64,000 nucleotides of DNA, from positions 4,380,976 to 4,444,975 of the forward strand of contig NC_134527.1 of NCBI RefSeq assembly GCF_027942865.1, given 5' to 3'. Every line of letters begins with the position of its first letter. Position 1 is the first letter of the stretch. Below the pieces are notes generated by a model. It was not told the origin of the DNA. It did not search any database and saw nothing but the letters and a program-made list of their open reading frames with translations. Source of the stretch: Odontesthes bonariensis. Taxonomy: Eukaryota > Chordata > Actinopteri > Atheriniformes > Atherinopsidae. This document shows positions 3,479-49,100 of this stretch, piece by piece. A program made the translations under genes and the position numbers.

Positions 3479-3593
3479 TAGGGCTGGGCGAGTTAACTCG
3501 TTATTATCATGTTAACTCGCTAATTATTTAACGCCGATAAATATTTTATCGAGCATTAACATATTTTATTTATTTTTTATTATAATTTTTTGT

Positions 3594-3778
3594 GACTTTT
3601 GTGCCTTTAATGGATAGGAAAGTTCAGAGAGACAGGAAGCAGGGGTCAGAGAGAGGGGGAACGACATGCAGCACAGGACCGTCGGATGCGGGACTCAAAC
3701 CGGGGCCAGCTGCAGCGAGGACTATAGCCTCTGTACATGGGGCGCCTGCTCAACCCACTACGCCACGGACCACCCCTG
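3594..3778 (-). mobile_element. tRNA-derived SINE nested in hAT copy 1
   Basis: On the minus strand: tRNA-like head with A-box-like TGGCGTAGTGG and B-box-like GGTTTGAGTCC, a pyrimidine-rich body, and a tail ending CCATTAAAGGCACAAAA. The same insertion at the same place in hAT copies 2 and 6 shows that it spread as part of the hAT element. Confidence 0.75.
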
Positions 3779-3895
3779 TTTTATTATTTATTTTATTATT
3801 GTAAAAGTCTGTTGCTCACAGGCTTTTATTTTGTAAAAGTCTGCTGCTGTCTGCTGTGGAACAGGAAAAGAAAGTAATCGGCGGATCCACCAAAC

Positions 3896-4201
3896 ATGGA
3901 GAAGGGTACGGAACTTTTACTCGGCCATTTTCATTTTAAAGTTCTTCCAGACGGCGGAGTCGACAGAACCAAAGTCATCTGTAAACACTGCCAAGTTGAA
4001 TTGTCTTCTCAGCGTAGTAGTTCCAGTCTAAAATATCACTTAAAGGCAAAACACACAACTGATAGCAGCAAGTCATTCAAGGAAACAGACAGTGGAGCGA
4101 GGCTTCTACATAAAAACTACAGAAAGATGCTGATGTTAAAAGTGTGTTTGCACAACAAATGTTATGGCACTTTCATTCATATGGCAGCACATTTAAAATA
4201 A
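3896..4201 (+). CDS. BED-type zinc-finger ORF of hAT element (copy 1)
   Basis: 101 aa. Residues about 28-55 hold a BED-finger pattern: C-x2-C (CKHC) followed after about 20 residues by H-x4-H (YHLKAKH), with an SSSSLKYH stretch between. BED fingers are the DNA-binding N-terminus of hAT transposases. The RNase-H-like catalytic domain that would follow is absent and the frame stops after HMAAHLK. Copy 2 at 7135-7440 is the same except for one residue (G to S at position 10). Whether it is transcribed is unknown; it could be relic coding sequence or a small DNA-binding protein. Confidence 0.55.
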   Translation: MEKGTELLLGHFHFKVLPDGGVDRTKVICKHCQVELSSQRSSSSLKYHLKAKHTTDSSKSFKETDSGARLLHKNYRKMLMLKVCLHNKCYGTFIHMAAHLK

Positions 4202-4635
4202 AGCTAAATGCTAAAGGCTATACACTACTTTTGGATTTTGCGTACAAATACGATTAATCGTGATGAATCGTGGAAATCATGTGATTAATTAGATTAAACA
4301 TTTTAATCGTTGCCCGGCCCTAGTTTCTAAATGTTCTTCCTGATTTTTCAGGTTCAAAACTCTGCTGCATTTACTATTAAAGTGAAGCTTCTTTCCAAAG
4401 GGATTAAAAGAAGAATCGACCCGTGTTTTAACCATGAAGTCTGCTGTGAATCAGCTCCGACTCACTTGTTGTTCCCTCCCCTTCAGATCTGCAGCTCATG
4501 ATGGGTGTGACCAACAGAATGTGAACCGAACGGCTCTGTTATCTGCACAGACACGTGATTTATAGCTCAGAGCTCAGATAAGTTTCAGCTTTCAGGAAGT
4601 GAAACTCACTGAGTCGTCCTGATCTGAGAGGAGAA

Positions 4636-6309
4636 ATGGCGCAGAAAGGAGTTCAGCTGGACCGAGAAAGCTTCTCCTGTTCGATCTGCCTGGATCTGCT
4701 GAAGGATCCGGTGGCTATTCCCTGTGGACACAGCTACTGCATGAGCTGTATTAAAGCCCACTGGGATGGAGAGGATCAGAAGGGGATCCACAGCTGCCCT
4801 CAGTGCAGGAAAACCTTCATACCGAGGCCTGTCCTGGGGAAAAACACCATGTTAGCTGATTTAGTGGAGCAGCTGAAGAAGACTGGACTCCAAGCTGCTC
4901 CTGCTGATCACTGCTATGCTGGAGCTGAAGATGTGGCCTGTGATGTCTGCTCTGGGAGGAAGCTGAAAGCCACCAAGTCCTGTTTATCCTGTCCGGCCTC
5001 TTACTGTGAGGAACACCTTCAGCCTCATTATGATTCAGCTCCACTCAGGAAACACAAGCTGGTGGAGCCCTCCAAGAAGCTCCAGGAGAACATCTGCTCT
5101 GTTCACGGTGAGGTGATGAAGATTTTCTGCCGTACCGATCAGAAGTGCATCTGTTATCTCTGCTTAATGGACGATCATAAAGGCCACGACACAGTGTCAG
5201 CTGCAGCAGAAAGGACTGAGAGGCAGAGAGAGCTGGAGGGGAGTCGGCAGCAGATCCAGCAGAGAATCCAGGACGCAGAGAAAGATGTGAAGCTGCTTCA
5301 GCAGGAGCTGGAGGCCATCGATCGGTCTGCTGATAAAACAGAGGAGCACAGCCAGAAGATCTTCGCCGAGCTGATCCGTCTCCTCCAGAAAAGAAGCTCT
5401 GATGTGAAGCAGCAGATCAGATCCCAGCAGGAAGCCGAAGGGAGTCGAGTCAAAGAGCTTCAGGAGAAGCTGGAGCAGGAGATCACTGAGCTGAAGAGGA
5501 AAGATGCTGAGCTGCAGCAGCTCTCACACACAGAGGATCAGAGCCAGTTTCTGCACAGCTGCCCCTCAGTGGCAGCACTCAGGGGGGCTACACACTCATC
5601 CAGCATCCAGATCCGTCCTCTGAGGCACTTTGAGGATGTGACAGCAGCTGTGTCAGAGCTCAGAGATAAACTACAGGACATCCTGAGAGAGGAATGGGCC
5701 AACATCTCATTGAGAGTCGCTGAAGTGGATGTTTTACTGTCAGAACCAGAACCAGAACCAGAACCAACGAGCAGAGCTGGATTCTTAAGATATTCATGTG
5801 AAATCACACTGGATCCAAACACAGCAAACAGAAAGCTGTTACTGTCAGAGGGGAACAGAAAAGTGAGATTTATGAAACATCCTCAGTCTTATTCTGATCA
5901 TCCAGACAGATTCACTGATTATTGGCAGGTCCTGAGCAGAGAGAGTCTGACTGGACGTTGTTACTGGGAGGTGGAGTGGAGAGGGAGAGGAGTTGTAGCA
6001 GTCGCATACAAGAACATCCGCAGAGCAGGAAGAGGGAATGAATGTGGATTTGGATTTAATGACAAATCTTGGGTATTACATTGTGACCCAAACAGTTATA
6101 TATTTATGCACAACAGCATTAGAACCTCCATCTCAGGTCCTCTGCCCTCCAGAGTGGGAGTGTACCTGGATCACAGAGCAGGTATTCTGTCCTTCTACAG
6201 GGTCTCTGGAACCATGACTCTCCTCCACAGAGTCCAGACCACATTCACTCAGCCGCTCTGTGCTGGGATCTGGCTTTATTCTTATGGAGACTCAGCAGAG
6301 TTTGTGTAA
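4636..6309 (+). CDS. TRIM E3 ubiquitin ligase, TRIM16/finTRIM-like (RING, B-box, coiled coil, PRY-SPRY)
   Basis: 557 aa in one exon. An N-terminal C3HC4 RING has C15-x2-C18, C30-x-H32-x2-C35-x2-C38 and C54-x2-C57. Two B-box-type zinc modules follow (about residues 100-132 and 152-185; CSVHGEVMKIFC, CYLCLMDDHKGH). A long Glu/Gln-rich coiled coil covers about 195-290, and a PRY-SPRY domain covers about 375-557 (ITLDPNTANRKLLLSEG, TGRCYWEVEW, GFGFNDKSW). Proteins of this layout transfer ubiquitin through the RING and recognise targets through SPRY; fish have large expansions of them, often linked to antiviral defence. The start follows an in-frame GGAGAA context, and no upstream methionine extends the RING. 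An (EP)4 run at about residues 370-377 is a coding hexanucleotide repeat. The C-terminus ends at AEFV, a few residues short of what I expect for the family. The exact orthologue is not determined. Confidence 0.9.
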   Translation: MAQKGVQLDRESFSCSICLDLLKDPVAIPCGHSYCMSCIKAHWDGEDQKGIHSCPQCRKTFIPRPVLGKNTMLADLVEQLKKTGLQAAPADHCYAGAEDVACDVCSGRKLKATKSCLSCPASYCEEHLQPHYDSAPLRKHKLVEPSKKLQENICSVHGEVMKIFCRTDQKCICYLCLMDDHKGHDTVSAAAERTERQRELEGSRQQIQQRIQDAEKDVKLLQQELEAIDRSADKTEEHSQKIFAELIRLLQKRSSDVKQQIRSQQEAEGSRVKELQEKLEQEITELKRKDAELQQLSHTEDQSQFLHSCPSVAALRGATHSSSIQIRPLRHFEDVTAAVSELRDKLQDILREEWANISLRVAEVDVLLSEPEPEPEPTSRAGFLRYSCEITLDPNTANRKLLLSEGNRKVRFMKHPQSYSDHPDRFTDYWQVLSRESLTGRCYWEVEWRGRGVVAVAYKNIRRAGRGNECGFGFNDKSWVLHCDPNSYIFMHNSIRTSISGPLPSRVGVYLDHRAGILSFYRVSGTMTLLHRVQTTFTQPLCAGIWLYSYGDSAEFV

Positions 6310-6314
6310 AGTGA

Positions 6315-6320
6315 AATAAA
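6315..6320 (+). terminator. proximal poly(A) signal of TRIM gene
   Basis: AATAAA six bases after the TRIM stop codon. It is very close to the stop, so the distal signal at 6682 is more likely to be the main one. Confidence 0.35.
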
Positions 6321-6687: not shown

Positions 6688-6848
6688 GGCGCTCAGGCCA
6701 AATATTCACTTTAAAGCTCCGTTTCTGTCTCATATTCTGTGTTTATATTCATGTTTGAACATGTTTCAGTGAATCAATGCAGCTGTTAACTCGCTAGTTA
6801 TTTAACACCGATACACATTAACGCATTTTTAAAAGAAACATTTTTGTT

Positions 6849-7017
6849 GGGGCTTTTGTGCCTTTAATGGAAAGTTCAGAAAGACAGGAAGCAGGGGGCA
6901 GAGAGAGGGGGAACAACAAGCAGCACAGGGCCGTCCGATGCGGGACTCGAACCGGCTGCAGAGAGGACTATAGCCTCTGTACATGGGGCTCAACACACTA
7001 CGCCACAGACCTCCCCT
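6849..7017 (-). mobile_element. tRNA-derived SINE nested in hAT copy 2
   Basis: Same head, body and tail as at 3594-3778, with small deletions in the tRNA-like part between the two promoter boxes. Confidence 0.65.
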
Positions 7018-7134
7018 GTTTATTATTTATTTTATTATTGTAAAAGTCTGTTGCTCATAGGCTTTTATTTTGTAAAAGTCTGCTGCTGTCTGCTGAGGAA
7101 CAGGAAAAGAAAGTAATCGGCGGATCCACCAAAC

Positions 7135-7440
7135 ATGGAGAAGGGTACGGAACTTTTACTCAGCCATTTTCATTTTAAAGTTCTTCCAGACGGCGGAGTC
7201 GACAGAACCAAAGTCATCTGTAAACACTGCCAAGTTGAATTGTCTTCTCAGCGTAGTAGTTCCAGTCTAAAATATCACTTAAAGGCAAAACACACAACTG
7301 ATAGCAGCAAGTCATTCAAGGAAACAGACAGTGGAGCGAGGCTTCTACATAAAAACTACAGAAAGATGCTGATGTTAAAAGTGTGTTTGCACAACAAATG
7401 TTATGGCACTTTCATTCATATGGCAGCACATTTAAAATAA
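7135..7440 (+). CDS. BED-type zinc-finger ORF of hAT element (copy 2)
   Basis: 101 aa, differing from copy 1 only at residue 10 (S for G). It keeps the CKHC and H-x4-H ligands. It lies in an element that has lost its left terminus. See copy 1 for domain detail. Confidence 0.5.
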   Translation: MEKGTELLLSHFHFKVLPDGGVDRTKVICKHCQVELSSQRSSSSLKYHLKAKHTTDSSKSFKETDSGARLLHKNYRKMLMLKVCLHNKCYGTFIHMAAHLK

Positions 7441-7529
7441 AACTAAATGCTAAAAGCTATACGCTACTTTTGGAGTCATTTTTGGATTCTGCGTACAAAT
7501 GCGATTAATCGGGATTAATCAGGGAAATC

Positions 7530-7790
7530 AAATCAAACTCAAATCAAACTTTATTTATATAGCACCTTTCATACTAAAGAAAAAAGCAACACAAAGTGCT
7601 TTACATAATGAAATCAGTAATAAAATCAATTCAATTCATAAACTCACACACAACATCACACCGACAACCACACTGCACACATACTACCCCCCCACCACCC
7701 CCAACATGAGCAATATCAACAACAATCAACAACAATCAACATTAAAATCAACATTAAAATCTGGCTTGACGCTGAAGCTGGCTTGACGCA
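7530..7790 (-). mobile_element. LINE-type 3' end nested in hAT copy 2
   Basis: On the plus strand it starts with AAATCAAAC units and 'tttatttatatagcacctttcat', then 'caaagtgctttacat'. This is the reverse complement of the 3' terminus seen in other fish LINE copies in this window (16604, 45643). No coding part is left. Confidence 0.55.
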
Positions 7791-7835
7791 TGCGATTAAT
7801 TAGATTAAACATTTTAATCGTTGCCCAGCCCTAAT

Positions 7836-9162: not shown

Positions 9163-9557
9163 AGTCATATTCAAATGGTTTATTAAGACCTATTATCACT
9201 GTATAAACCTTAATATTTCCTCTCAGATGAAAGTTTTTTACCCCAGTCCCCTTTAATTTGATTTATGGACCATTGAACGGCTTAAATGCTCCCTCTTAGT
9301 CATATTCATATACAGTATTGAAGATCTGTTATCATTTATTATACCAACCGTTCTGTTATTAGCTATATTTTTAAATGCTTCCTCTTAGAGGAAAGTTTAT
9401 CCATGTTTGTTAGCTTTTGTTAGTTTACTCAAATTACCTGTTATAGTTATACCAATCTTACTATTAGCTTAATTTAATTTTGCTCTGTATTCCTGTGTTG
9501 TATTTTTTATGTCTTTATGTAAAGCACATTGAGTTGCCTGTAGTATGAAATGCGCTA

Positions 9558-9611
<54 letters not shown>
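9163..9611 (+). mobile_element. retroposon 3' end with (TTGA)n tail, nested
   Basis: Inserted in the CACTGTAA element and flanked by the 7-base direct repeat ATTTAAC. It ends in 'gaaatgcgctatataaataa' followed by about 11 TGAT units (9563-9610), a typical fish LINE tail. The coding part is missing. Confidence 0.65.
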
Positions 9612-12058: not shown

Positions 12059-13309
12059 TCACGGCTTGCAGAAATGACACTTGATTATTTTCTTGAACGC
12101 GCTTTGGAAGTCTTTGTTAAAGTATGCGTAGATGATGGGGTTCAGTAAGGAGTTGGAGTAGCCCAGCCAGTTTATCACATCCTCCAGCCAGCGGGGCATG
12201 TAGCACGACTCCTGGCAGAAAGGCATGACCAGGGCGACGATGAAGAAGGGCAGCCAGCAGAGGATGAAGGTGCCCATGATGATGCCCAGAGTCTTCACCG
12301 CTTTGCGCTCCCGCACCAGCGCGATCTTCTTCTTCGCCTCGGTCGCCTTCTCGTGCCTGCTCTCGAACAGCGGCACGGGGCTCGGGGTGTTGGGCAGCGG
12401 CAGGTTGCCTTTGGAGTTGCTGTGAACTTCGATTATCTCCAGAGACTCGCCGTCCTCCGCGTGCTTCACCGCGCCGTTGGCGCTCGGCGGCGCCCGGGGC
12501 TCCACACTCCGTCTCCAGCTCTTTCCCTGCGCGTCTCCGTGGGGCTTTTTGTGGAACAGCGCGGGGGACAGCGCCAAACACGAGTCGGAAACTTTCTTTT
12601 TCTCAGTTTTACGCACAGTCCTCCTGATCCGAAAACGCGCAGCTTTGAATATCCGTCCATATAAAACCAGCATCAGGGACAGCGGGATGTAAAAAGCCCC
12701 GAATGTGGAGTATATTGTGTACCAGGGGTCTTGCCTGATCTTACACTGCTTCGGATTCGCCCTGTCCTCCGCCATGCTGCTGGGCTGAGAGCGCATGACC
12801 AACATGGGCGGCACCGAGATGGAGAACCCGACGAGCCAAGTGACACTGATGAGAACCGCGGCTCTCCTCGGCGTCCTCTTCTTCATGTACTCTATGGGCT
12901 CCGTGATCGCCCAGTATCTGTCCAGCGCGATGGCGCACAGGTGCAGGATGGACGACGTGCAGCACAGCACATCCAGGGAGATGAAGATGTCGCACGGAAC
13001 CTGCCCGAGCGTCCACCGGTTTAAGATCTGGTAAAGCGCCGCCATGGGCAGCACCAGCACCGACACCATCAGGTCGGTCACGGCCAGAGAACCGATCAGG
13101 TAGTTGGCCACGTTCTGGAGGGACCTCTCCAACGCGATGGCCGCCACCACGCAGGCATTCCCAAAGATTGCGCACAGGATGAGCGCGCAAAGCAGGAGGG
13201 ACGTGACCACCTGGTAACTCAGCTTCACCTCCTCGTCCTCAGGGTTGGAGGGTTTGATTGTTGAGTTTTCAAACTGGGGCCAGGCTGTCGTGTTGTTTGC
13301 GCCCTCCAT
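12059..13309 (-). CDS. htr1a: 5-hydroxytryptamine receptor 1A
   Basis: 416 aa in one intronless exon, against 422 aa in human HTR1A. This is a class A GPCR that binds serotonin and couples to Gi/o at the neuronal plasma membrane. Visible landmarks: N-glycosylation sequons near residues 5, 6 and 15; TM1 about 35-60; the amine-binding Asp at 113 ([10 protein letters not shown]); DRY at 130-132; a long basic third intracellular loop (about 220-340); FILCWLPFF in TM6; NPIIY in TM7; and a short tail ending KCHFCKP with cysteines suited to palmitoylation. The DRYWAI and [13 protein letters not shown] blocks are typical of 5-HT1A. rnf180 follows downstream on the other strand, as in human, which supports orthology. 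Fish usually have two htr1a paralogues (aa/ab); which one this is cannot be told here. Long ORFs on the opposite strand are GC-rich shadows. Confidence 0.96.
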
Positions 13310-13483: not shown

Positions 13484-13519
13484 CCAGTGATGGAAAACGC
13501 GTCATTTGTCTGTGAGGCT

Positions 13520-18271: not shown

Positions 18272-21200
18272 CCTATAAGCCATATATAATTCCCCTTTGA
18301 ACACATCATCCTCAATCTGTTTAATGCACTAGACAAGTGCTAGCATTTCGCTAACTAGCCGCTAACGTACAGAAACCTTAGAAACAGCTAGTACAACTAC
18401 CCATCAATAGCATAATGCTAATCTGCCAAACAACCCATGCAGAAAAAACACATGTACAGAATGTAAGTGAAAGTATTCTTCGGTTTCATGTAGCTGGGAT
18501 GTTTCTTTTAATGACGGCAAAGAAGTTCCCGTTTTATCCCGTTTTTATTTTCTGAACTACATCACTTCCGGTTTTCGTCAAGACCCGAATCGATGCGATC
18601 TAAACAAAAGATACAACCTCCCTGGAGGAGTGGAAAGGAGTGAACACAACAAATGTAATCCAGGTGGACCGTTCTTAGAACTGCTCTGTCCGAATGCGGC
18701 CATTGAGTCCACCATGAACTCCTCTGGATACCAAAGTGTTCTAGAGTCAGATGTGAGGCTAAAGCTGGGCTGAAACTGGCTCATCAACAGGACAAAGATC
18801 CCAAACACAGCAGCAGATCTACAGCAGAATGTGTGAAGAAGAGAAGAATCAAGGTGTTCTGATGGTCCAGACCTCTGGTATAATTATTCTTATTATATCC
18901 TGAATCCTAAAACATTTTTTCTTTAATGACTGTATATAAATAAAAGCTGCATTCAGCTTCTATGCTCCACATGTCTGGAACAAACTCCCAGAAAGCCTCA
19001 GATCAGCTGAAACACTCAGTGTGTTCGAAACCGCATACTACATACTTCCATACTACATACTACATACTACATACTACATACTACATACTTCCATACCGCC
19101 TACTACATACTACATACTACATACTGCATACTCATCGATCAGACAGTATGCAGAGCATTTACCCACAATGCATTTCGTTCCTGCCCGAGCCGAAATCAGC
19201 CGGCCTGAAGCTGATTTCGCTTAAGCTCTAAACTCTGTAAACTTTAGCAACATTTGAAACATTTTCAGGTGAGAAAGTAGTCGTTTAGATCCCCAACGTG
19301 TTGAAAACCTGACAAAATACCGGCTATTCACAATTTTGTTCCCACGAATTCGGCGCTACTAAAGCTAGCCGCAGTGAGCAACGCACTTCCGGTTATTTTC
19401 ACAAAATAAAATACCCGTTGCCTTTAATCATAGGGAAAACCATTACCATACAATTGGTGCTTTTGTTTTGAAAACAGGAAGTGAACCCACCCTCGTTGTA
19501 GCTAGCTTGAAACTGCCGTTTTGACAGGAAATGACGATCGGCGACGTTACGTTGCATCTTGGGTAGTTTGAGTATGAGTAGTAACCTCATGATGCATACC
19601 CAACATTTAGGAGAATCTAGTATGCATCCGGAAACTTAAAAAAAGTTAAAGTTAGTATGAGTAGTGGGAGTAGTAGGAGAAGTATGCGGTTTCGAACACA
19701 GCCACTCAGTGTGTTTAAGTCCAGGCTGAAGACACACCTATTTTCAGCTGCGTTTGAATAAAGCTCCAAATCTGAAGCTTGAGTTTCAAAACTTAATCAC
19801 ATTTTAACTCCTGATTTTATCAATTTTTCTTATTTCTTTCTCTTTTTTTTTTTAATTTAAATCATGCTTTTTATTTCTACTGTTTTAATGTCTCTGTAAA
19901 GCACTTTGAATCACCTTGTAGTTGAGTTGTGCTGTACAGATAAACTTGCCTTGCCTATACTCTGTGATTCAGGTTTGTATTTTTAACTCTAACAAGTCAG
20001 TTCCTCACGCTTTGACATCAACCCCATGGCTGCTGTAGGTGCTTAATCAGTCTTATGCAACACAATAAAAGCCATATGATGAGAAATCTGATTAATCGAT
20101 GAACACAATCGTTTTACCTGCAGTTGCATCCCGCTGTTTACCTCCAGATTTGATATTTTTATCAGAATAAATGAATAACTCGTGGCTGTGGTGTCTCTCC
20201 AGGCCCAGTGGACCGTGGGAAAGCTGAACTGCCATAACTGCGGGGCTCGTTTGGGCGGCTTCAACTTCATTAATCGCTCCGACTGTCCCTGCGGCCAGGA
20301 CGCCGCCGTCCACCTCAGCAAGAGCCGCGTCGATCACGACCACAAGCGCTGCGTCCTCATCGTCCAGCCCAGGAGGACAAAGCCCGGGGCGGGTCTGCTG
20401 TCGGACTGCTCTCAGAGGAAGGAAGAGCGGCCTGAACTCAGCAGGTCGGCCCTGGACAGTTTACAGCTCAACTGCACTGCCGTCATGTCCCACATCCGTC
20501 CGGTGGAGGCCTCGCATCAGCTCAGCCACGCTGGAAGCACTCAGCCGTTTTCCTTCAGCCCCCTTTACTGCATCTCTCACAGGAGAAGGGGCAGCCTGGA
20601 GGACGGGGGAGACTTCAGGTCGTGTTTTTGCCCCGTTGGCCCTCCCGGCATGTCTGCTGTGGATCTGATGAGGTCGGGATCGTCTGGTTCTTATCCCACC
20701 AGCCCCACGAGGGAAGCCTCAGTTAACGCCGTCCGCTGCCGTCCGGCTGCCTCAGGAGGTGCACGGCCTCCTCTGCATCAGCAGCCGCTGCCGGCTGAGG
20801 CGGACGTGGAAGCTTTGGCCACCGCATCGGTCCACCAGGAGCTCTCTGAGTCCCTGCCCTCTCACAGAGGAAGATCCACCTCTAACAGAGCTGCCGAGCT
20901 GGAGGAGGGAGCAGAGGTAAGCTGCTGCACGGGATTGTTTTAATTAGGGCTGGGCGCGTTAACTCGTTATTATCGCGTTAACTCGTCAATTATTTAACGC
21001 CGATAAATATTTTATCTATATATTTTTATCAATATTTTATATAATATTTTATTATTGTAAAAGTCTGTTGCTCATGGGCTTTTATTTTTGTAAAAGTTTG
21101 TTGCTCACAGGCTTTTATTTTTGTAAAAGTTTGTTGCTCACAGGCTTTTATTTTGTAAAAGTCTGTTGCTCACAGGCTTTTATTTTGTAAAAGTCTGTTG

Positions 21201-24200
21201 CTGTCTGCTGTGGAACAGGAAAAGAAAGCAATCGGCGGATCCACCAAACATGGAGAAGGGTACGGAACTTTTACTCGGCCATTTTCATTTTAAAGTTCTT
21301 CCAGACGGCGGAGTCGACAGAACCAAAGTCATCTGTAAACTCTGCCAAGTTGAATTGTCTTCTCAGCGTAGTAGCTCCAGTCTAAAATATCACTTAAAGG
21401 CAAAACACACAACTGATAGCAGCAAGTCATTCAAGGAAACAGACAGTGGAGCGAGGCTTCTACATAAAAACTACAGAAAGATGCTGATGTTAAAAGTGTG
21501 TTTGCACAACAAATGTTATGGCACTTTCATTCATATGGCAGCACATCTAAAATAAAACTAAATGCTAAAAGCTATACGCTACTTTTGAATTCATTTTTGG
21601 ATTTTGCGTACAAATGCGATTAATCGTGATTAATCAGGGAAATCATGTGATTAATTAGATTAAACATTTCAATCGTTGCCCAGCCCTACTTTTAATACAT
21701 CTCCAAATAACATTAGCACTCTTGTTGTGTGTCAGCTTTTCTTTTGGTTGTCCTCGGTGGCTTATTCTGTGTTGTTCTCGCAGCCTCGGGCCTCTGAGGT
21801 CTCCCCAGACTTATTAGGGCTGAGCAAAAGAGAGAAGAACCGTCTGAAGAGTCAGCGCAGGAAACAGAGGAAGAGAGAAAGATGGCTCCACAGCCGGCAG
21901 GAGAAGGAGCCGGTACTCAGAATTCTGTTTTTACTTTTGCATTTCTCTCAGGAATAGAATATTTTAACTATTCATCTAAAGTTAAGAGAAGTTGTTACAT
22001 GTAAGAGTGGCAGAGGAGCCAGTTTCAGAGGATGGATGGGAGATGTTTTCCACTCTCATGCCAGCAAACCAGATGTGATATCTTCAGATGTTTGCGTGCA
22101 GGCTGGAGGTGAGAGCGCTTCGCCGCTGGACAGTGAGGAGGAGGGCAGGGAGGCCGTGACCTGCGCCGTGTGCCTGGACATCTACTTCAGTCCGTACAGC
22201 TGCCAGCCCTGCGGCCACGTCTTCTGCGAGCCGTGCCTCCGCACGCTCGCCAAGAACCGGCACGCCAGCACCCCCTGCCCTCTGTGCCGCACCCTCATCT
22301 CACACACCAGCTTCCACAGAGGTGAGCGTCCGCCGTCGTTCTTATTTAAAGGGACAGTTCGCCTCTTTTGACTTGAAGCTGTATGACATCCCATATCAGC
22401 AACATCATTTCTGAACATCTTCTTACCCCCTGCTGCGTCCTGTGAGCAGAGTTCCAGCCTCGTTTTGGTGTTGACGAAAGTAGTTCCGGCTAGTTGGCTG
22501 GGGTTTAAAAAATAAAGCGTTTTGCTTCTCAAAACAATATGCGTTCAACAGAGTAATACATTTGCATCACAAAATGGTTCTCCAGGAAAAAGTCAGACCT
22601 CACAATCGCTTGGCCCTATTTTCTCTCCCTTCGTATCACTGCCTGCTGCCGACAGCCGCGCCTGTTACGGTGTTTGCTGCTCGGTCTGCACAGCAGGCAG
22701 TGATATGAAGGGAGAGAAAATAGGGCCAAGCAATTGTGAGGTCTCACTTTTTCCTGGAGAAAGATTTTGTGACACAAATATATTACTCTTTTGAACGCAT
22801 ATTGTTTTGAGAAGCAAAACGCTTTATTTTTTAAACCCCAGCCAACTAGCCGGAACTACTTTCGTCAACACCAAAACGAGGCTGGAACTCTGCTCACAGG
22901 ACGCAGCAGGGGGTAAGAAGATGTTCAGAAATGATGTTGCTGATATGGGATGTCATACAGCTTCATGTCAAAAGAGGCGAACTATCCCTTTAATGAACAG
23001 AAAATGAAGAATTCACAACCGATTGTAATTGACTAAAACTGTCCTCATTCCCCATCAGAGCTCAACCAGACTGCAAAGACTTTCTTCCCCAGAGTCTATG
23101 TCGCTCGCAAGCAGAACTTCCAGAATTCGCTGTGTGCAAAATGGCCTCTACCCAGCTTCCGCAAACACTTCTGGTCCTTTTGGGGTGAGAACCTGCGCCA
23201 GTTATAGGCGTATAAATTATGTTTTTGTCTGTTTCTCTTAAAAAACTCTCAGTCTAGCTTGTTCACAGCGAACATAAGTAGGGTAACTGATAATCAGAGG
23301 TGGGTAGAGTAGCCAAAAGTAGAAGTAAAAAGTCATCCAAATAATTACTTGAGTAAGAGTAAAAAAGTGCTCGGTGAAAAAACTACTCCAGTACTGAGTA
23401 ACTGTTGAGTAACGTCTGATTTATTTGTTAACACAAGCATTCAATCAGACAGACAAAAATACTAAATAATCATCTTTAGGCAAATTAGAGTTCATCCAAT
23501 TGATAAAATAAATTAAAATTAATTAATTAATTACAAAATAGCTTAAATTAAAATAATCCAGGTAAATTCAAATACTTCAATAAAAAATAAAAGAGACTTA
23601 GGAAATGTTTAAAACATGTGTAACCCATATGTAACCTAAAAAACAAACATTCACCTATCCATGGGGGGAAAAACGAGTTTAGGAAACTTAGCGCTACATG
23701 TTTCCTCAAGTTAGATGTTGAGTTTCTGCTGAAATGTGCGTTTGTTTTGGTTGCCACAGAAGACACATAATGTAGCTGCTGTTTCTCACTCTTTGTAAGG
23801 TAAACATGCTTTCAGTATGAGGCCTCGTCTGCGTCTTCATTTCCCACCGTTGGTTCTGACATTTTTCATCTGTTTCTTTGTTTGTTTGCTACGACTGCTA
23901 ATGCTAAAGCTAACCCGTCCCGCCGCTGAGATCGAGTACGGTCACGTGACCCGACTGCACGGCTGCGTCTGATTGGTGGAACACAGTCAGGTGGTAGAGC
24001 CTTTGGCGGAAGTCTCTCTCTCTGTCAGAATAAAACATTAAAATGAGGCGTACGCGGGGGGATAAAAATAATGAGGCGTAGAATACCAAAGAGGTAAGAA
24101 GAAAAGTAACCAGCTCATTGTAGCCTAATGTAGCGGAGTAAGAGGACAGTTTCTGCTGCACACATCTACTCAAGGAAAAGTAAAAAGCATAGAGATTTAA

Positions 24201-25168: not shown

Positions 25169-26193
25169 TTAAAGGGACAGTTCGCCTCTTTTGACATGAA
25201 GCTGTATGACATCCCATACTAGCAACATCATTTATGAACATTTTCTTACCCCCTGCTGCGTCCTGTGAGCAGAGTTCCAGCCTCGTTTTGGTGTTGACGA
25301 AAGTACATTATATTATATTACGGTCATTCTGCAGTCGCTTTTATCCAAAGTGACTTACAATAAGTGTGTTCCACATCGGTAGGCAAAAGAACTTCAGGTC
25401 ACAAGAAATCATAAGTGCATTTCCTTCCAAATCCAAACAGCTAAGAGCATAACTAGTGCTGGAGTAAGCGCGGTAAGTTAGGTACCGAGACAAATGGGAA
25501 GACAATTGGCTGAAACTAGTTTCAATGGGGGCTGTTATCACACAGAGAAACTAAACCAGCAGCAAGCTTACTTAGCAGTCAAAATATAGCAAAAAGCAGA
25601 ATGGTACACTAGACAAATGTTACTTACTTATTCTGGATGAATCAAGGAGTTCACAGTCCCTCCAAAAGTTAAAAACACAGAAAGTAGTTCCGGCTAGTTG
25701 GCTGGGGTTTAAAAAATAAAGCGTTTTGCTTCTTAAAACAATATGCGTTCAACAGAGTAATACATTTGCATCACAAAATGGTTCTCCAGGAAGAAGTCAG
25801 ACCTCACAATCGCTTGGCCCTATTTTCTCTCCCTTCGTATCACTGCCTGCTGTGTAGACTGTGCAGCAAACACCATAACAGGTGTGGCTGTCGGCAGCAG
25901 GCAGTGATACGAAGGGAGAGAAAATAGCACCAAGCGATTGTGAGGTCTGACTTTTTCCTGGAGAACGATTTTGTGATGGAAATGTATTACTCTGTTGAAC
26001 GCATATTGTTTTGAGAAGCAAGACGCTTTATTTTTTAAAACCCAGCCAACTAGCCGGACTACCTTCATCAACACCAAAACGAGGCTGGAACTCGGCTCAC
26101 AGGACGCAGCAGGGGGTAAGAAGATGTTCAGAAATGTTGCTGATATGGGATGTCATACAGCTTCATGTCAAAAGAGGCGAACTGTCCCTTTAA
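25169..26193. mobile_element. TTAA-flanked foldback element with a nested insertion
   Basis: TTAA+AGGGACAG at 25169 and CTGTCCCT+TTAA ending 26193. The unique centre is in the opposite orientation to the copy at 22346. The left arm is split by a 374-base insertion (25306-25679). Confidence 0.85.
25306..25679. mobile_element. dispersed retroposon-like repeat, nested
   Basis: Inserted in the foldback element and flanked by the 7-base direct repeat GAAAGTA (25299-25305 and 25680-25686). Its 'cggtcattctgcagtcgc', 'ttatccaaagtgactta' and 'caataagtg' phrases recur at 43176-43360. The class is not determined. Confidence 0.65.
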
Positions 26194-27589: not shown

Positions 27590-33310
<5,721 letters not shown>

Positions 33311-35318: not shown

Positions 35319-35964
35319 TAGGGCTGGGCGAGTGAACTCGTTATTATCGCGTTAACTTGTTTAATTATTTAACGCCGATAAATATTTTATCGCGCATTAA
35401 CGCAGGTTTTATTATTGTAAAAGTCTGTTGAATGCATCACATTCACACAGTTACAGCAAACACCACGAAGCATGGAGTAATAAAACAAAGATAAACTAGC
35501 AGCTAACATCACCGCTACAGGTGTGAAGCTCACGGAGCTAACCGGCGCTACTTCCTGTTTTACTTGTTTCAACATAAAAGCACATATTTCAAAATAAATT
35601 TAAAAAAAAACCATTTACAGCCAAGTTGAATTGTCTTCTCAGCGTAGTAGTTCCAGTCTAAAATATCACTTAAAGGCAAAACACACATCTGATAGCAGCA
35701 AGTCATTCAAGGAAACAGACAGTGGAGCGAGGCTTCTACATAAAAACTACAGAAAGATGCTGATGTTAAAAGTGTGTTTGCACAACAAATGTTATGGCAC
35801 TTTCATTCATATGGCAGCACATTTAAAATAAAACTAAATGCTAAAAGCTATACACTACTTTTGGATTCATTTTTGGATTTTGCGTACAAATGCGATTAAT
35901 CGCGATTAATTTGGGAAATCATGTGATTAATTAAATTTTAAATTGTAATCATTGCCCAGCCCTA
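35319..35964 (+). mobile_element. non-autonomous hAT element (copy 5), perfect target duplication
   Basis: Ends TAGGGCTGGGC and GCCCAGCCCTA, flanked by ACAAGAAC on both sides (35311-35318, 35965-35972). This is the clearest evidence that the family is hAT. The 5' part of the BED ORF is replaced by unrelated sequence (about 35425-35615), and the frame resumes at [12 protein letters not shown], so the first Cys pair of the finger is lost. Confidence 0.9.
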
Positions 35965-40100: not shown

Positions 40101-43100
40101 TCTTTTTTCTTTCAATACTTATAAATTGTCTAAACCTATTACCTGTCCTTTTGACACTATTTGCCAATGTAAACATATGTGATTGATTAATGTGTGACGA
40201 GACTCCACTTTGATTGGCAGGTGTCATGGGACTAATTAACTGATTGTTGTCAACCAATCACATAGTAGAGGATAATTTATAAGAGGTGTTTTCACTTTGC
40301 TTGTGTAAAAACTTGAGAAAGGCCACACTGGCCGAAACGTTGTTTGTACAATAAATTCAGCATGATGGACAAGAGTGTGCGGTATCTTCTCCTTTGAAGT
40401 GAACTAGTACCCGCTACCTGCACCTCGAAACTTCTGGTGTGCATTGGTTTCTTCCTCCTAAAAAAGCCAGGAAAGAACAGGAAACAAGGACATTTGTGTG
40501 ATGAGGAGAAGCAATGATGAACTTAGCCTGCAAGTGAGCAACATCTCCTGTTATAAACCAGGACAACACATGGTTGCGTTGTTCCAGCCGCGTCCCGTCT
40601 CTCAACCTGCAAAAAATGCATCCTGGCAGAAATTCTAACTCAGATTAGCTCCTTCAGTTCAGAAAAGAGAGTAACGCCCGACCTGCAAGGCACAAACTAA
40701 TTCACTGGGATGAAAGCTGTAAGACTTTTCATGTCTTTCCGGTAGGGCTGGGCGAGTTAACTCATTATTGTCGCGTTAACTTATTAAATTATTTGACGCC
40801 GATAAATATTTTATCGCGCATTAACGCAGGTTTTTAAAAAAATAATAATTTAATTAATTTATTATTATTATTTTTGAGGGCTTTTGTGCCTAATGGATAG
40901 GAAAGTTCAGAGAGACAGGAAGCAGGGGTCAGAGAGAGGGGGAACGACACGCAGCAGAGGGGGAACGACACGCAGTCCTGGTTCAAGTCCAACGCGGGAC
41001 TTGAACCGGGGCCAGTTACAGCGAGGACTATGGCCTCTGTACATGGGGCGCCTGCTCAACCCACTACGCCACGGACCACCCCTGTTTTATTATTTATTTT
41101 ATTTTGTAAAAATCTGTTGCTCATAGGCTTTTATTTTGTAAAAGTCTGTTTTAATTCATAAGTTCTTCCAGCCCTATTTTCCGGAGTTCATTTCATGTCA
41201 CGCACATTGAGGGCGCTGCATGAGTAAATGCACATCTGAGTTTCTTTGATTCTAACCCCAGTTTTTCCAGGGTGTCCAGTTTCATTCGCCAGGTTCAGGT
41301 TAAAGAGTAGCAGGGGCGTGGCTAGATTCTAATGCCATTTAACTTAAGGACTCTCTCTTATCTTTTTGACATAGTTTCGTACCCGGTCCATTGAGAGACC
41401 CTCCCAGTTCGGTGGAGCAGCCTGCAGCGTGGAGCTGGCAGAGGAGCGGCCCTGTTATCCCGCCAAAGAGTGCAAGTTGCCAGCCATTGACTGCATGGAG
41501 AAATTCAAGTGTGGAAATGGTGAGTCCCGCTACTTTATGTTCCTATGTTCCTCCCTCCACCGAACGCAGACTTCGCCATGTGTTTTCATAATGCACAGAC
41601 ACCAACACACTTCTAAAAGAGGTTTCTCCTGCTGCAGGGCGCTGCATTAACGCCACACTGACATGCAACGAACAGAACGACTGTGGAGATAACTCCGATG
41701 AGAAGGACTGCAGGAGGACGACACCTGTATGCCCAGCTGACAAGGCAGTCGCCCCCGGGGCTGACCTGGTGGGAAATGGGTGAGCTAACGGTTAATACCC
41801 CCCCACTGAGTTCCCTTTCGCAATGTGCACGTATATCCAAGTATACGTTTAGAAAATGTTCACGCAACCCTCACTTTTCGCCTGGTTTGGAGGATGACGC
41901 CATCTAAAGTCAGACGTGAAGATGCAGACATCTTTTGTTTATTTACGTCATAAATTTTATCTGACCAAGAAGAAATGCCATTGAAATAAACTATCCCTTT
42001 TACGAGGGAGTGCTGGCAAAGACAGCAGCGCAGTTAACAGAAGAAAACCACACATACAGGCCACAACCAGGGTACATGTACAGTAATACCAGTAAATTCA
42101 TGCAACGGTGACCAAGAGGACAACCTCATGTCTTCCCCACTGTATCAAGGATATCTTGTGACACCCTTAAAGTCTTGTACTTAAAGGGATAGTTCGCCTC
42201 TTTTGACTTGAAGCTGTATGACATCCCATACTAGCAACATCATTTATGAACATGTTCTTACCCCCTGCTGCGTCCTGTGAGCAGAGTTCCAGCCTCGTTT
42301 TGGCGTTGATGAAAGTAGTTCCGGCTAGTTGGCTGGAGTTTAAAAAATAAAGCGTCTTGCTTCTCAAAACAATATGCGTTCAAAAGAGTAATACATTTGC
42401 ATCACAAAATCGTTCTCCAGGAAAAAGTCAGACCTCACAACGGCTTGGCCCTATTTTCTCTCCCTTCGTATCACTGCGTGCTGCCGACAGCCGCGCCTGT
42501 TTCACGGTGTTTGCTGCTCGGTCTTCACTTCGGTCTGCACTTCGGTCTACACAGCAGGCAGTGATACAAAGGGAGAGAAAATAGGGCCAAGCGATTGTGA
42601 GGTCTGACTTTTTCCTGGAAAACGACTTTGTGATGCAAATGTATTACTCTGTTGAACGTATATTGTTTTGAGAAGCAAGACACTTTATTTTTTTAAACCC
42701 CAGCCAACTAGCCGGACTACCTTCATCAACACCAAAACGAGGCTGGAACTCTGCTCACAGTACGCAGCAGAGGGTAAGAAGATGTTCATAAATGATGTTG
42801 CTGATATAGGATGTCATACAGCTTCATGTCAAAAGAGGCGAACTATCCCTTTAAGTTCAATAGAACCTAAACAGGATCTGACTCCACCTTGATGTGTTTG
42901 AAGGTTCGATGCTCTTGCAGAGGAGCCGAGGGGAGCAGTGCTCGACAACATGTTTATGGGAGGAACTTGCACCATCAGGAGGCCCCGAAACTTCAACACG
43001 TACTATCGCATTCCTCACAACATGGAGAGCTTTGAAATGAAGGTAGTCTTTGGTATCGTTGTCATGCTTTCATTGACGAGATGTTTTCACCGGCCGGAGA

Positions 43101-46100
43101 AACCATCAGCCGGTTATCACAGTCTTACATCCAATCTAACCAAATCGACCTTATATAGGAATGACCGAGGCATTACATTTCATTACATTACGGTCATTTT
43201 GCAGACGCTTTTAACCAAAGCGACTTACAATAAGTGCGTTCAACATCGGTAGGCAAAAGAACTTCAGGTCACAAGAAATCATAAGTATATTTCCTTCTAA
43301 TACCAAACAGCTAAGAGCAAAACTAGTGCTAGAGTAAGTGCGATAACCAACCAGCCTCTCACCAACTGCACACCAGTCACAGCGGGGTGGGGATGCAAAC
43401 CCTGGTTCGGGTAGGGGGTAATGAAAATATAGAGGGTGCCAGAGGTGGAGGAAACAATAAGTGCGTAAGGAACTAGGACGGCGCAGGTGCTGTCCTAAGA
43501 GGGCGGATCAGGGTAGTTTTTCTTGAAGAGGTGGGTTTTCAGCCTACGGTGAGATGGCTGATGTATCATGAATACATTTAACATTTCCTTTCTTCTGACT
43601 TTTATTTTTCTCATTTTTAGAACCAGAACAAATGAGGTCTGAAGGATTATAACAGTCAGAGAGTCAAGTCACAATTCATAATGCGTACAAAATAAGGAAG
43701 GCAGGAACGTTAAAAGAAATGATAAAAAGGCAGCTACAGTAACAGTCCCACTTTAACCCTACAACCCTGACCCCATTAAGCAGATCAAGTAAGTTATGTT
43801 GTTAAAACAAGCAGGAGTCTGCAAGCCTTGGGGATAATTCCACGGAATAAGGAAGTAAGTCGAGCCCCGAGTCTCAGAGATTGAACGGGCAAGTCCTTTT
43901 CAGAGTATGACCTGCCAAAACTCTCCAGCAAGAGTCCAGGGGTCCGTTTCACAAAGCAGGTTCAACAAACTCTGAGTCTGTTCCTGATCTCTGAGTTGAT
44001 CTACTCTGAGATAGAAAACCCTGAGTTTTCGGTTCCAGAAACGCTGATTTGAGTGAGTTTAATCAACTCTGAGTAGGTTCACCTTGAGTTTTGCATGGGC
44101 GCCACAACTTCAAAAAGCCAGCATCAATGGACCCCCGATTCGACGAGTCACCATGGCAACGGGGAAGAGGAAGGGCTACGTTTTTCACCAACCTCGAATT
44201 GGAAATCTTAATGCGCTCATACGGCGAGTTTCAATACGTTTTTAGAAATAAGTGCAACACCGCTGCAGCAGCAAAAGTGTAAGTTTAAATGCAGACCTTT
44301 GCAATCACAATAATATTACAGGGAAACTGCTTGAATGGTAGCCCATTCATTTATTTCATTTAGGTGCAATCTCGCGGGAGAGAAGCGCACTTGGCAGCAG
44401 TTTAAGATGAAATATAAAAACATTGTTCAAACAGGTGAGACCTTGGCATGGAGGCTCATTCTGATCATGTTTTACACTGTAAAATAAATATTAAGTGGCT
44501 ATTTGACTGTGCAGTTATTTTATTTCCAACATAATGCTGTTTTCACACACATAAACTATGTCTTCTCATCTATATCATGTTCTGTTAAATACTTAAGCCT
44601 ATTTAAACTAAAAGAGACTTCTACTGAGCCAACAGAAAGAAGGCAGATGCCCGTAAAACGGGTGGTGGCCACCACCTCTAACGGGAGGCCAGTGGCTGAG
44701 ACACGAGTGTCTTTATAAAACATAATAGGCCTATATATATCTTTTTTAAGCCTATTCATACAAATATTTATTTGTCTTTTATGTCTTTTTTTTCTTTTGT
44801 CCCAACACATTCTGATGGTGCCGCTCAAAAAGATAATTGTCTGTAAATGCAAAAACATCTATGCGCGGTCTGATAACCATCTCCGACGAATATTTATTTC
44901 TCTGCGCAGTAATGCTGCACCTTCATCCACGGGATCGTTGTCAAAAGGACATGTTCGTGAAAAAAGTCGCCTCCTACTGTGCCTAATGGACTTCTAGAAG
45001 TAGAAGAACTCGCTCTGCTGACTGACTGAATGAGGAAATCAAATGGCGTGTGTGGCTGAAAGAGGGCGGAGACAGAAAGAAACTCGAGGTTTCTTGAGGA
45101 AAACCTGGTCCCGACCAGGTTAGGTTCAGAGAGTCTGTTACTACGGTAACTGACCGAGAGGTTGAGTTACCTCTCTTTGTGAAACGGAAAACTCAGGGTT
45201 TCCCTCATTTCAGGGTTAATCTACTCAGAGTTTTCACTAAACCTGCTTCGTGAAACGGACCTCTGGAATCCTCTTTAAGAGTTTGGACTGAGGCAAGAAA
45301 GTAGAACACAATCAAATCAAATTGTTTTGTAGGAGACTTCTCCAAAGGAAAACTGTTTGGTGTGGGCTGTAATTCTGCTGATGCGTTTGTTGTTGTTTAG
45401 GTTGGCGAGCTGGAGGATTTCAGCACCGAGCCCCAGACGCTGCACAGCGAGCCCGTCGATCTGAAGACCAGTTCATCGTCTACCAACTACGGTCCAAAAC
45501 GAAACGACTTTCTCTTCATCCTCTTGTTCTTCCACAAATCATCTAGCTCAGGGATCACCTCTAACAAGGCTGCTTTCGAAGCCTCCAAGAAAAAGGTGGC
45601 CGATGCCGTCATCATTGATATATTTGCAGTGCCAAACATTTCAAATCAAAATCAAATCAAATTTATTTGCATAAAACATTTCATGTACAAAACAATTCAA
45701 AGTGCTTCACATAAAATAAAAGCATTGCAGCAGGGAGTGGAAGAAGCATTAAAAATACATAAAAGAATATGTATGAATATGTGAATTTAAAAACAAGCAA
45801 CAGTCCAGATAAGTTCAAAGATAGCGTGCAGATTTCATGCATAGACACATGAGAACAGAAATGTTTTTAACCTGGATTTAAAAATGTCTCCATTTGGTGA
45901 AAGTTTAATCTCCACTGGCAGTTTGTTCCACTTGTTTGCAGCATAACAGCTAAATGCTGCTTCTCCATGTTTAGTCTGGACTCTGGACTGGACCAGCTGA
46001 CCTGAGTCCTTGGATCTAAGAGCTCTGCTGGCTTTATATTCTCTGAACAGATCACAGATTGTAAACCATCAGCAGGCTTTTAAAATCTATTCTGTGACTG

Positions 46101-49100
46101 ACTGGAAGCCAGTGTAAAGATTTTAAAGCTGCTGTGATGTGTTCAGATCTCTTAGTCCGGGTTAAAACTCCAGCAGCAGCGTTCTGGATGAGCTGCAGAT
46201 GTTTAATGCTCTTTTTGGGAAGTCCAGTTAAAAGAGCGTTACAGTGATGGAGTCTGCTGGAGATGAATGCATGGAGGAGTTTCTCCTGGTCTGTTTTTGG
46301 GAGAGGAAACCTTTAATTCTGTTGATGAGGAGGATGATTTGAGGACGCCACAAAGATATATATACAAGCACAATCATGTACACATTTCTTTTCACATGCA
46401 CAGATTCTACTCGTTGCACCTGCAGTTTGGAGTCTCTTTAATTCTTGTTCTTTGCTTTGAAGGACTCCAAATTTTTCCGAGTGCATCAGATTCTTCCCGT
46501 GTCCACGTTCAAAGTGAGGGACACGGACGACCTCGTGCTTTCACTGCCCTTCCTGGAGTTCCTCCACGCTCTTCCCCTTCAGTACAACTATGCGCTCTAC
46601 AGGGAGATCTTCCAGCGCTTTGGGACGCACTACCAGAGCTTAGGGAGACTGGGAGGCCACTATGACCTGCTGTACCAGTACAGCAGAGAGGAGATGAAGA
46701 GTTCAGGTACGGCAGCTCAAAGCTTAAAGTTTGGTATAAAGATGGCAGAAAATATCTCTACCTGGAGTCCCTCAGCTCTTTTGTTTCTTGAATGCCGTGC
46801 ACTCTCCCCCCTCTGACAGGCGAAACCGAAGAGCACGTCTCAGGCTGCCTGAACCGTGACACCACCTTTACCGTCATCCTTTACTCTCAACACAGCAGCG
46901 TATCCCGATGCACCAACAACAAGATGACTGAGAAATATGAAGGTGCCATCAAAAGTCGTCCAGAAATAATGCACATTTCGGTGTTACTGCCTCTTTTGTC
47001 TAGTTATTACGTTCCTTTTGTCCAGGGTCTTACATCCAGGCATCAGAGAAGTCCTTCTCCATGGTAAAAGGAGGTCGATCCAGAGAGGCAGCGGCTCTGG
47101 CCTGGGAGAGACAGGGCGCTGCTCCGGACAAACTATCCTTCAAGAACTGGGCCAAGTCTGTGATCGACAACCCCGCTGTGGTCGATTATCAGGTAAACTT
47201 TGGAGTTCCCTGCGAAAAGCATCCAAAAAAACTAGGGCTGGGCAAGTTAACTCGTTAATTATTTAACGAATATTCGAATTCGAATAACGAATATTTAATA
47301 AATATTTTATCGCACATTAACGCGTTTTGGGGGGGGCTTTTGCGCCTTTAATGGATAGAAAAGTTCAGAGAGACAGGAAGCAGGGGGCAGAGAGAGGGGG
47401 AACAACATGCAGCAATCTATAGCCTATAGACTGTAGCACAAAACACACAACTGATAGCAGCAAGTCATTCAAGGAAACAGACAGTGGAGCGAGGCTTCTA
47501 CATAAAAACTACAGAAAGATGCTGATGTTAAAAGTGTGTTTGCACAACAAATGTTATGGCACTTTCATTCATATGGCAGCACATTTAAAATAAAACTAAA
47601 TGCTAAAAGCTATACACTACTTTTGGATTCATTTTTGAATGTTGCGTACAAATGCGATTAATCGTGATTAATCAGGGAAATCATGTGATTAATTAGATTA
47701 AACATTTTAATGGTTGCCCAGCCCTAAAAAAAACATCTTGAAAGCTGCTGTTACACCTCCGTCCGTTTGTGTTTGTCCAGCTGCTTCCCATCATAGATCT
47801 GGTGCGAGGAATCCCCTGCGCCGTCACCAAGAGGAGGCACCTGAGGAGGGCCATGCTGCAGTACCTGGAAGAGTTCGACACCTGCAAATGTGCCCCGTGT
47901 CCCAACAACGCCAAACCAGTTCTCTCTGGCACAGAGTGCAAGTGTGTTTGCCAGACTGGCACCTTCGGTACCAACTGTGAGAAACGGGCTCCTGACTACA
48001 CCTCAGGTACCTGCTGGTATAACTCGTGAGAACTGGGTGATCACAGGCGGTCCTGGCTAGATTTACGCCCTGGGTGAACTATCCCCCCCCAAAAAAAGAC
48101 TTACCCCGGCACCAACACAGCAACATATTATATTATTTGGATTATTTTATAATCTTAAATACAAAAAGGTACAAGAACTGAGAAAAAACACGATAAATAA
48201 ATTAAATACAGAATATAAATATCAATCACAAATCCTAAAATAACCTCAAAATCCTAAAAAATAACCGAAGAAAGCTAAAAAAAAATAGAATAAAGGCTAC
48301 TCTATGGAGCATAAAAAAATATTCCTGCAGTTATGCTAACAACAGAGCTCAGACTGTAGCAGCTGTTTTCACCCTGTCTACAGCTGGCATTCACATTAAT
48401 ATTGTTGTGTTGCAAACACAAACCAGACCAGGTTGCCTTTGGGTGAAATTAGCTGCATGACATGATGCCTCAATTCTAATTCTAGTTCAGCAAAACTGTA
48501 AATCAAATACAGTCGTGGCTAATAGCATCATATTAGCAAGAGGCTAACAGATAGCCTATAGCCTACGTCACTGATAGAAATCTGCATCCCTTTATCTTTT
48601 GCCCGTTTCTCCTCTTCTTCTCTTTCTAAACTGGGCACCTGATGGCTTCTTTGGTCTTTCACCATGATGATGATCCATGATGACTCCACATTATTACCTT
48701 TGCTTTTCCCATTAACGCCGTCCGTTCACCCGTCAACCAACCGGAGTCACGTGACATAAACATATCTACGTAGATTACTGCCCTGGGCGGTTGCCCACAT
48801 TGCCCATAGCAAAAACCGGCCCTGTGGGTGATAACCAGGAAAGGTAGTAGTCGTCAATCCACTGCTGGATTCTGTTTTATACTAAGAGGAAGCCACACGA
48901 GCTCGTCTCTGACAGAAAGGGAGTGGGGAGTCCATATGTGTCTACTCCTGAAAATATAAGAAGAGGAGTCTTAGGCAATAACAAACATGGACTCTTCAGC
49001 AACTAAAATCTTGTATCGAGCTTTTAGAGATTCCTCTAAAAAAAAAAAACAGCAACAGTTGGTATCCTTGGTTCCCTAGATGATTACAAATTGGCTTTGT

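Follow-up and report, generated by a model that had tools for sequence, protein, structure and literature searches.

A young non-autonomous hAT family with a BED-finger reading frame in the genome of Odontesthes bonariensis

Miniature inverted-repeat transposable elements (MITEs) usually lose their whole interior. Here we describe a hAT family from the fish Odontesthes bonariensis that differs from Ds- and MITE-like hAT derivatives: it is without a catalytic domain but keeps the part that encodes a BED zinc finger, as an open reading frame (ORF) of 101 amino acids (aa). The family was analyzed from a stretch of 64,000 nucleotides, hereafter the window (C27:4,380,976-4,444,975), and across the 945-Mb assembly, in 187 contigs, to which the window belongs. 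Features in common with hAT elements of the Ac type are the 11-bp terminal repeats, target duplications of 8 bp in which position 2 is T and position 7 is A, the subterminal repeats and an N-terminal BED finger.

The Tgf2/Tol2 and Hermes transposases are described as binding the ends of their elements through an N-terminal BED finger (PMC4890040, PMC10368747). Tgf2 transposases without the finger lost binding to their own ends (PMC4890040), and the isolated BED domain of Hermes binds tightly to a quasi-palindromic pair of subterminal repeats (PMC10368747). The N-terminal BED is shared with the element described here; those proteins, however, have the complete transposase. In KP and other P elements with internal deletions, too, what is left of the transposase gene includes the DNA-binding part (PMC12393704), although P elements belong to another superfamily and our element gives no evidence of repression or selection. 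Domesticated proteins of the CGGBP type are also short and derived from the BED part of a hAT; they were studied as host proteins (PMC8097297), whereas here we deal with a multi-copy mobile family. By analogy with P repressors, the Hermes BED domain and Tgf2, the 101-aa peptide could bind the ends of the element.

Composition and abundance of the family

The window contains seven related copies of one element, every one on the + strand (Table 1), with the 11-bp tips TAGGGCTGGGC/GCCCAGCCCTA. Ten tips are exact; copy 2 is without the left terminal repeat, the left tip of copy 4 and the right tip of copy 1 have one mismatch each, and the right tip of copy 6 has two. The 8-bp duplications match at 8/8 positions in copies 5 and 7 and at 7/8 in copies 3 and 6, agreement that random pairs from the window attain with frequencies of 6e-5 (8/8) and 5.7e-4 (7/8); no convincing 8-bp duplication was found at copy 1 (3/8) or copy 4 (5/8). 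TTAA-type motifs occur three to four times in the first 110 bp of all seven copies; at the other end, six of the seven have one to three within the final 110 bp. Palindromic GTTAAC and ATTAAT motifs are present in the ends.

The three 101-aa ORFs (copies 1, 2 and 3) differ by one or two residues: G10S between copies 1 and 2, H31L between copies 1 and 3. Pfam recognizes zf-BED alone (residues 13-53, E 3.3e-8). Catalytic and dimerisation domains, looked for by Pfam in the 101-aa ORF, were not found, and the copies are therefore non-autonomous. Residues 45-101 gave no significant Pfam match (best E 0.89), and a single-sequence fold was too poor to use (predicted local distance difference test score, pLDDT, below 50 at residues 51-101; mean 47.6, poor throughout). 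A phmmer search of PDB returned a weak match to human ZBED1 (2ct5, E 0.012). A second PDB match, to a designed repeat protein (4ow4, E 7e-6), was taken for chance, no single stretch of it being significant. There were no confirmed relatives in viral_contigs or genome_contigs, where the single-protein queries reach close relatives only, and the tip sequence, matched against literature text in a search that was not aimed at naming the family, occurs in 18 papers, none of them about hAT elements as judged by titles. Copies 4 to 7 bear internal deletions or replacements that differ from copy to copy. In copy 5 the start of the ORF and the first part of the finger are replaced by ~190 bp; the remnant, from 35621, keeps residue 33 onward and both cysteines are lost. 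The remnant of copy 7, from 47439, comprises residue 51 onward only.

Across the genome a 29-mer from the C-terminal half of the ORF (the core 29-mer) is found at 6,368 exact places and at 7,439 within three mismatches; the reversed control gave 0. Protein matches number 9,733 candidates, and all of the 150 that were scored are 100% identical over 101 aa. Among the 150 matches listed (C1 to C4), protein places on C1, C3 and C4 are clustered close to one end of each, and those on C2 lie at 4-7, 26-31 and 43-44 Mb. On C1 the first 100 exact core 29-mer places are thinly spread as far as 39 Mb; from 39.6 Mb onward they lie densely. Both element ends could be located in 46 of 80 loci (L001-L080); with six copies from the window this gives 52 copies with both ends, the 8-bp flanks of which have 0-2 mismatches in 44 instances and at least three in 8. 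The consensus of the 44 is nTnnnnAn (T2 in 32/44, A7 in 36/44), which we take to be that of Ac-type hAT elements. The family is a group of young, very abundant non-autonomous hAT DNA transposons with thousands of copies, and a very recent amplification is supported.

Mismatches within the duplications (L001-L080 and the window copies) are concentrated rather than spread, with 8/25 at position 1 and 5/25 at position 7, as if insertion sometimes duplicates its target imperfectly. Because of this pile-up the mismatches were dropped as an age clock.

Much of this had been proposed in a first-pass annotation made from the letters of the window alone. The seven related copies, their hAT assignment, the perfect and 7/8 duplications, the three near-identical BED ORFs and the missing catalytic domain all stand. 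Four of its seven copy starts are right and three are off by one, the correct positions being 20945, 31363 and 47233; the ends that it gave as shared by all copies hold for most tips, with the exceptions above.

Selection on the reading frame

Copies were sampled from the genome in four ways: 30 picked for a perfect protein (sample A, kept out of the nonsynonymous/synonymous ratio); exact matches to the core 29-mer on C1, the first 30 of them, comprising 18 mid-chromosome copies (5.5-36.5 Mb) and 12 others (sample B); 20 listed places within the dense stretch of C1, picked by the core 29-mer (sample D); and 20 picked through an exact match to a 29-mer of the flank, of which 19 are dense, with 7 of the dense ones shared with D (sample E).

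The ratio was calculated for two sets of copies, neither selected by protein. For 44 non-redundant copies from dense or end regions it is 1.07 (bootstrap 0.74-1.91; 17 synonymous changes over 2,340 sites, 75 nonsynonymous over 9,606), and for 19 mid-chromosome copies 0.95 (bootstrap 0.71-1.44; 31 over 1019, 119 over 4117). Variants present in at least three of these 63 copies comprise 13 nonsynonymous and 2 synonymous changes, a ratio of 1.59; for variants in at least four copies it is 1.35. Mid-chromosome copies have equal private non-CpG change in the ORF (1.46%) and the 3′ flank (1.33%). Where the start is present, the 101-aa ORF is intact in 18 of 28 dense/end copies versus 2 of 14 mid copies. 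Copies 5 and 7 of the window, unable to encode the finger, are equally uniform, with one difference over the 155 positions of the remnant and 12 over 133 positions of the 3′ flank. Given ratios near 1, the decay of the ORF in mid copies and equal private change, the protein is not visibly maintained; selection on the protein is rejected as the main cause on the ratios, the private-change figures and the counts of intact ORFs and shared variants, with one weak contrary hint given below.

The first-pass annotation had placed two explanations side by side, very recent amplification and a useful finger, and had named a ratio near 1, equal divergence of ORF and non-coding parts and a lack of transcripts as together marking a passive relic. 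Recency is borne out by the 150 identical proteins and the abundance of the exact core, and the ratio is indeed near 1; the useful finger is not upheld. In full, that alternative would make the BED peptide a KP-like, trans-acting competitor or recruiter that binds subterminal repeats, limits or guides the transposase, and is kept by selection. P-element repressors combine an interrupted transposase with a DNA-binding domain that is kept (PMC12393704), and the element has both; the isolated Hermes BED binds subterminal repeats (PMC10368747) and the ends here contain the GTTAAC/ATTAAT palindromes; the zinc ligands are altered in just 2/49, 3/51, 1/60 and 2/60 copies; and the ratio falls below 1 among variants found at least twice (see below). 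Selective maintenance, however, is what the data do not reveal: the ratio is near 1 in dense/end and mid groups alike (1.07 and 0.95), variants in at least three copies are mostly nonsynonymous, remnants that cannot encode the finger are just as uniform, and merely 2 of 14 mid copies with a start are intact. A trans-acting product would, moreover, give its own copy no advantage. We consider a selected competitor or recruiter very improbable.

We favor, at a probability of about 0.8, a young non-autonomous hAT family in which the ORF is intact through recency and not through selection on the protein; from its sequence the ORF has the look of a passive relic left by recent amplification. A full hAT would have undergone internal deletion to give the element, its first coding part (the BED finger) becoming joined to non-coding 3′ sequence, such that the last ~30-45 residues of the ORF would be an accidental product of that sequence. 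The element would be moved in trans by a hAT transposase recognizing its ends. In many copies the ORF would be intact through recency, perhaps also through inter-copy exchange that keeps the interior uniform, while in older copies it would decay like neutral sequence. A conserved-looking repeat ORF can mislead: identical proteins occur at at least 150 places, and constraint at the codon level is not seen.

Several observations weigh against this reading. Variants in at least two of the 63 copies comprise 26 nonsynonymous and 12 synonymous changes, for which the ratio is 0.53 (p 0.051) or, once CpG sites are left out, 0.57 (p 0.15), possibly a trace of constraint in the source elements. In dense domains the ends of copies vary more than their interior, a contrast not expected from plain recency, and in mid copies too the total divergence of the ORF (3.68%) is below that of the 3′ flank (6.26%). 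Finally, since no autonomous parent was found among the hAT domains read downstream, the internal deletion is a step that we infer.

The uniform interior

Within the window, copies 1, 3, 5 and 7 show 2 changes over 155 positions in the ORF, whereas the 3′ flank has 22 over 133 (p 1.6e-6). A single change point is best placed at ~21547, eight bases before the stop codon of copy 3, and was matched by 0 of 2,000 shuffles. Genome divergences were measured against the majority sequence of samples A and D, with the search word left out. Sample D gives 0.73% for the ORF, 2.70% for the 3′ flank and 5.90% for the left end; the 12 B copies outside the middle give 1.03%, 4.68% and 5.40%; the 18 mid B copies 3.68%, 6.26% and 5.45% (ORF versus flank, paired p 0.0019); and the 19 dense E copies 0.60%, 2.96% and 6.80%. 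Sequence preceding the ORF is less uniform than the ORF itself (3.0-4.2% divergence). Genome-wide, the share of exact 29-mers is 6368/7439 (86%) for the core versus 2450/6908 (35%) for the 3′ flank, where the flank 29-mer may also occur in relatives without this core.

As sample E was selected by a flank word, the uniform core is not an effect of selecting by core; the contrast between ORF and flank remains in these copies and sampling bias is ruled out. Selection on the protein likewise does not explain the uniform interior, given ratios near 1 and remnants that behave alike. A short-read assembly artefact was judged unlikely, since the 945 Mb are assembled into 187 contigs and two other repeat families of the window, P and S, are without a uniform middle. 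Families Q and R cannot serve as clean controls: Q has a stretch of 98.6-98.9% identity, and in R divergence is far higher at one end than in the middle. Hypermutable ends are countered by the equal private change of ORF and 3′ flank in mid copies, with the caveat that the total divergence of the flank is still higher there (6.26% vs 3.68%). Equality of ORF and non-coding divergence thus holds for private change in mid copies, and fails in dense domains and for the total divergence of mid copies.

One explanation is gene conversion centered on the interior, a form of concerted evolution by which, in dense domains, the middles of elements are replaced after insertion while the ends, which adjoin unlike flanking DNA, keep their own changes. 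The contrast of ORF and flank in both the 20 core-picked and the 19 flank-picked copies (7/20 loci overlap), the shares of exact 29-mers, the lack of any codon bias and the absence of a uniform middle from families P and S all agree with it. Older core variants are common in mid copies (418A in 9/17, 422C in 14/17, 475C in 9/16, 532T in 13/17 and 598T in 9/17), while the dense/end copies are nearly all of one new core type (e.g., 418C and 532G, each in 60/61; half of the 62 dense/end copies typed had been picked for a perfect protein). Among 13 variable sites, 40 of 78 pairs show all four combinations at least twice, some of the sites being CpG-type and the count being without a control. The core of copy 4 is a mix: its bases at 418-491 are of the new type, whereas those at 532 and 536, near its deletion, are of the old. 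The four-combination pairs and the copy 4 junction are signs of exchange between copies, although recurrent mutation also yields four combinations. Exchange is not free, however, as four linked variants that define two groups persist across the uniform core (r2 0.13-0.25; 0.25 for 254-660). With the variants still linked, short conversions inside the core fit better than end swapping. Further points against conversion are that private change in the 20 densest copies does not differ between ORF (0.34%) and flank (0.46%, p 0.48), that uniformity does not extend to the stretch immediately preceding the ORF (3.0%), and that families Q and R, the one with a near-identical stretch and the other with a middle less diverged than one end, show such uniformity not to be unique. 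Interior conversion is plausible, at rather less than an even chance.

A history at the level of the sources alone would require no conversion after insertion: a few active sources with the same core and slightly different ends would each have produced one burst. The flank variation of the 32 dense/end copies of samples D and B is in keeping with this, being mostly shared (2.40%) rather than private (0.71%), as are the two groups and the rarity or absence of their linked variants in mid copies (254C in 1/11, 273A in 1/12, 613G in 2/18, 660C in 0/18). On the other hand, the sources would need to have gathered four or more differences in the rest of the element while none of that frequency arose in the 306 bases of the ORF, and private change in the same 32 copies is lower in the ORF (0.29%) than in the flank (0.71%, p 0.0075). 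We give source-level history close to an even chance; it and interior conversion explain the uniform interior about equally well. The broader proposal, that ectopic gene conversion, acting in particular copy-dense domains, homogenizes the interior of a dispersed cut-and-paste element of some 7,400 copies and so leaves an unselected ORF near-intact between more diverged ends, is more tentative, its odds being well short of even. If interior conversion is true, the family would offer, on a large scale, a natural experiment in recombination among dispersed repeats, and any dating by divergence would depend on the part of the element that is read.

Coding relatives, nested repeats and neighboring features

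The first-pass annotation had suggested a search for an autonomous relative with matching ends. The hAT dimerisation domain (Dimer_Tnp_hAT) has 2,305 candidates in the genome, of which 150 were scored, all above the cut-off; for 12 of the 150 the sequence was followed for 700 bases beyond the domain. The exact right tip GCCCAGCCCTA lies downstream in 2 of these 12, one on C2 and one on C23 (Table 1). Both elements have the left tip TAGGACTGGGC (one mismatch), leading into CGATTAATCG, and the frames of the C2 element contain BED and hAT dimerisation domains by Pfam. Their BED, subterminal and 3′ untranslated sequences are unlike those of our family, and they are therefore tip-matching relatives and not the parent: a coding hAT with the same right tip was found, but its interior is another. 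That this type is the mobilizer of the family is possible at most, to judge from its tips. No autonomous parent was found among the 12 domains read downstream, of 150 scored and 2,305 candidates. None of the nine C1 domains among the 150 listed is, by eye, within 100 kb of a listed exact core 29-mer. Twenty of the 150 listed domains lie at 21.7-29.7 Mb of C13, and the open frames that contain six of these are 421-519 aa long; this cluster is possibly a recently active coding hAT.

Table 1. Positions of the window copies, their reading frames and inserts, and the two coding hAT elements that share tips with them
Feature	Position	Strand	Details
Copy 1	3479..4322	+	844 bp; both tips (right 1 mismatch); nested SINE; 101-aa ORF
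Copy 2	6782..7833	+	1052 bp; left tip lost; SINE; 101-aa ORF; 3′ part with later repeat insert
Copy 3	20945..21688	+	744 bp; exact tips; 7/8 duplication GTTTTAAT/CTTTTAAT; without SINE
Copy 4	31363..31985	+	623 bp; partial SINE; left tip 1 mismatch; duplication 5/8
Copy 5	35319..35964	+	646 bp; both tips; perfect duplication ACAAGAAC; without SINE
Copy 6	40743..41176	+	434 bp; SINE; without ORF; reduced right tip; 7/8 duplication CTTTCCGG/TTTTCCGG
Copy 7	47233..47726	+	494 bp; both tips; perfect duplication AAAAAAAC; partial SINE; ORF remnant only
101-aa BED ORF, copy 1	3896..4201	+	motif Cx2Cx15Hx4H at residues 29-53
101-aa BED ORF, copy 2	7135..7440	+	G10S vs copy 1
101-aa BED ORF, copy 3	21250..21555	+	H31L vs copy 1, plus two silent changes
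86-aa truncated ORF, copy 4	31687..31947	+	entire finger kept
Nested tRNA-type SINE, copy 1	3596..3778	-	A box TGGCGTAGTGG, B box GGTTTGAGTCC on - strand
Repeat insert, copy 2	7532..7788 (approximate limits)		related piece at 9498-9587, - strand
Coding hAT, C2	C2:41,524,640-41,527,662 (L113+L110)		3,023 bp; duplication 7/8
Coding hAT, C23	C23:29,716,495-29,719,508 (L114+L109)		3,014 bp; duplication 8/8

A tRNA-type short interspersed element (SINE) lies antisense, whole or in part, inside five copies (1, 2, 4, 6 and 7), and copies 3 and 5 are without it; the first-pass annotation says nothing of this SINE. In copy 4 the 16-bp repeat TTTTATTATTTATTTT stands on both sides of the partial SINE, and positions 978-1070 of the window match the SINE part alone. 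Copy 3 has a 33-bp tandem repeat at 21047-21202; the extent of this ~33-bp unit of the 5′ leader varies between copies (window 21047-21202; L005, L019, L027-L029). The ~190 bp of copy 5, at about 35431-35620 between the left end and the ORF remnant, is absent from the other window copies and is perhaps parent sequence or filler.

A second dispersed family, palindromic and MITE-like, is found at 1987-2358, 22329-23011, 25680-26198, 42170-42855 and 59240-59945; its copies match on both strands, are 82-95% alike and are without a uniform middle. Between copies 1 and 2 (4636-6309) there is an uninterrupted 557-aa ORF of TRIM type (RING, B-box, coiled coil, PRY-SPRY). A rhodopsin-family receptor ORF of 416 aa, presumably 5-HT1A-like, occupies 12059-13309. 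The - strand bears a reverse-transcriptase fragment (RVT_1) at 38317-38718 and the 3′ element of an UnaL2 long interspersed element (LINE) at 43188-43242. Near the right end of the window, at 52552-53657 and 60932-64000, repeated blocks of ~430-990 bp are 84-96% alike, some of them inverted.

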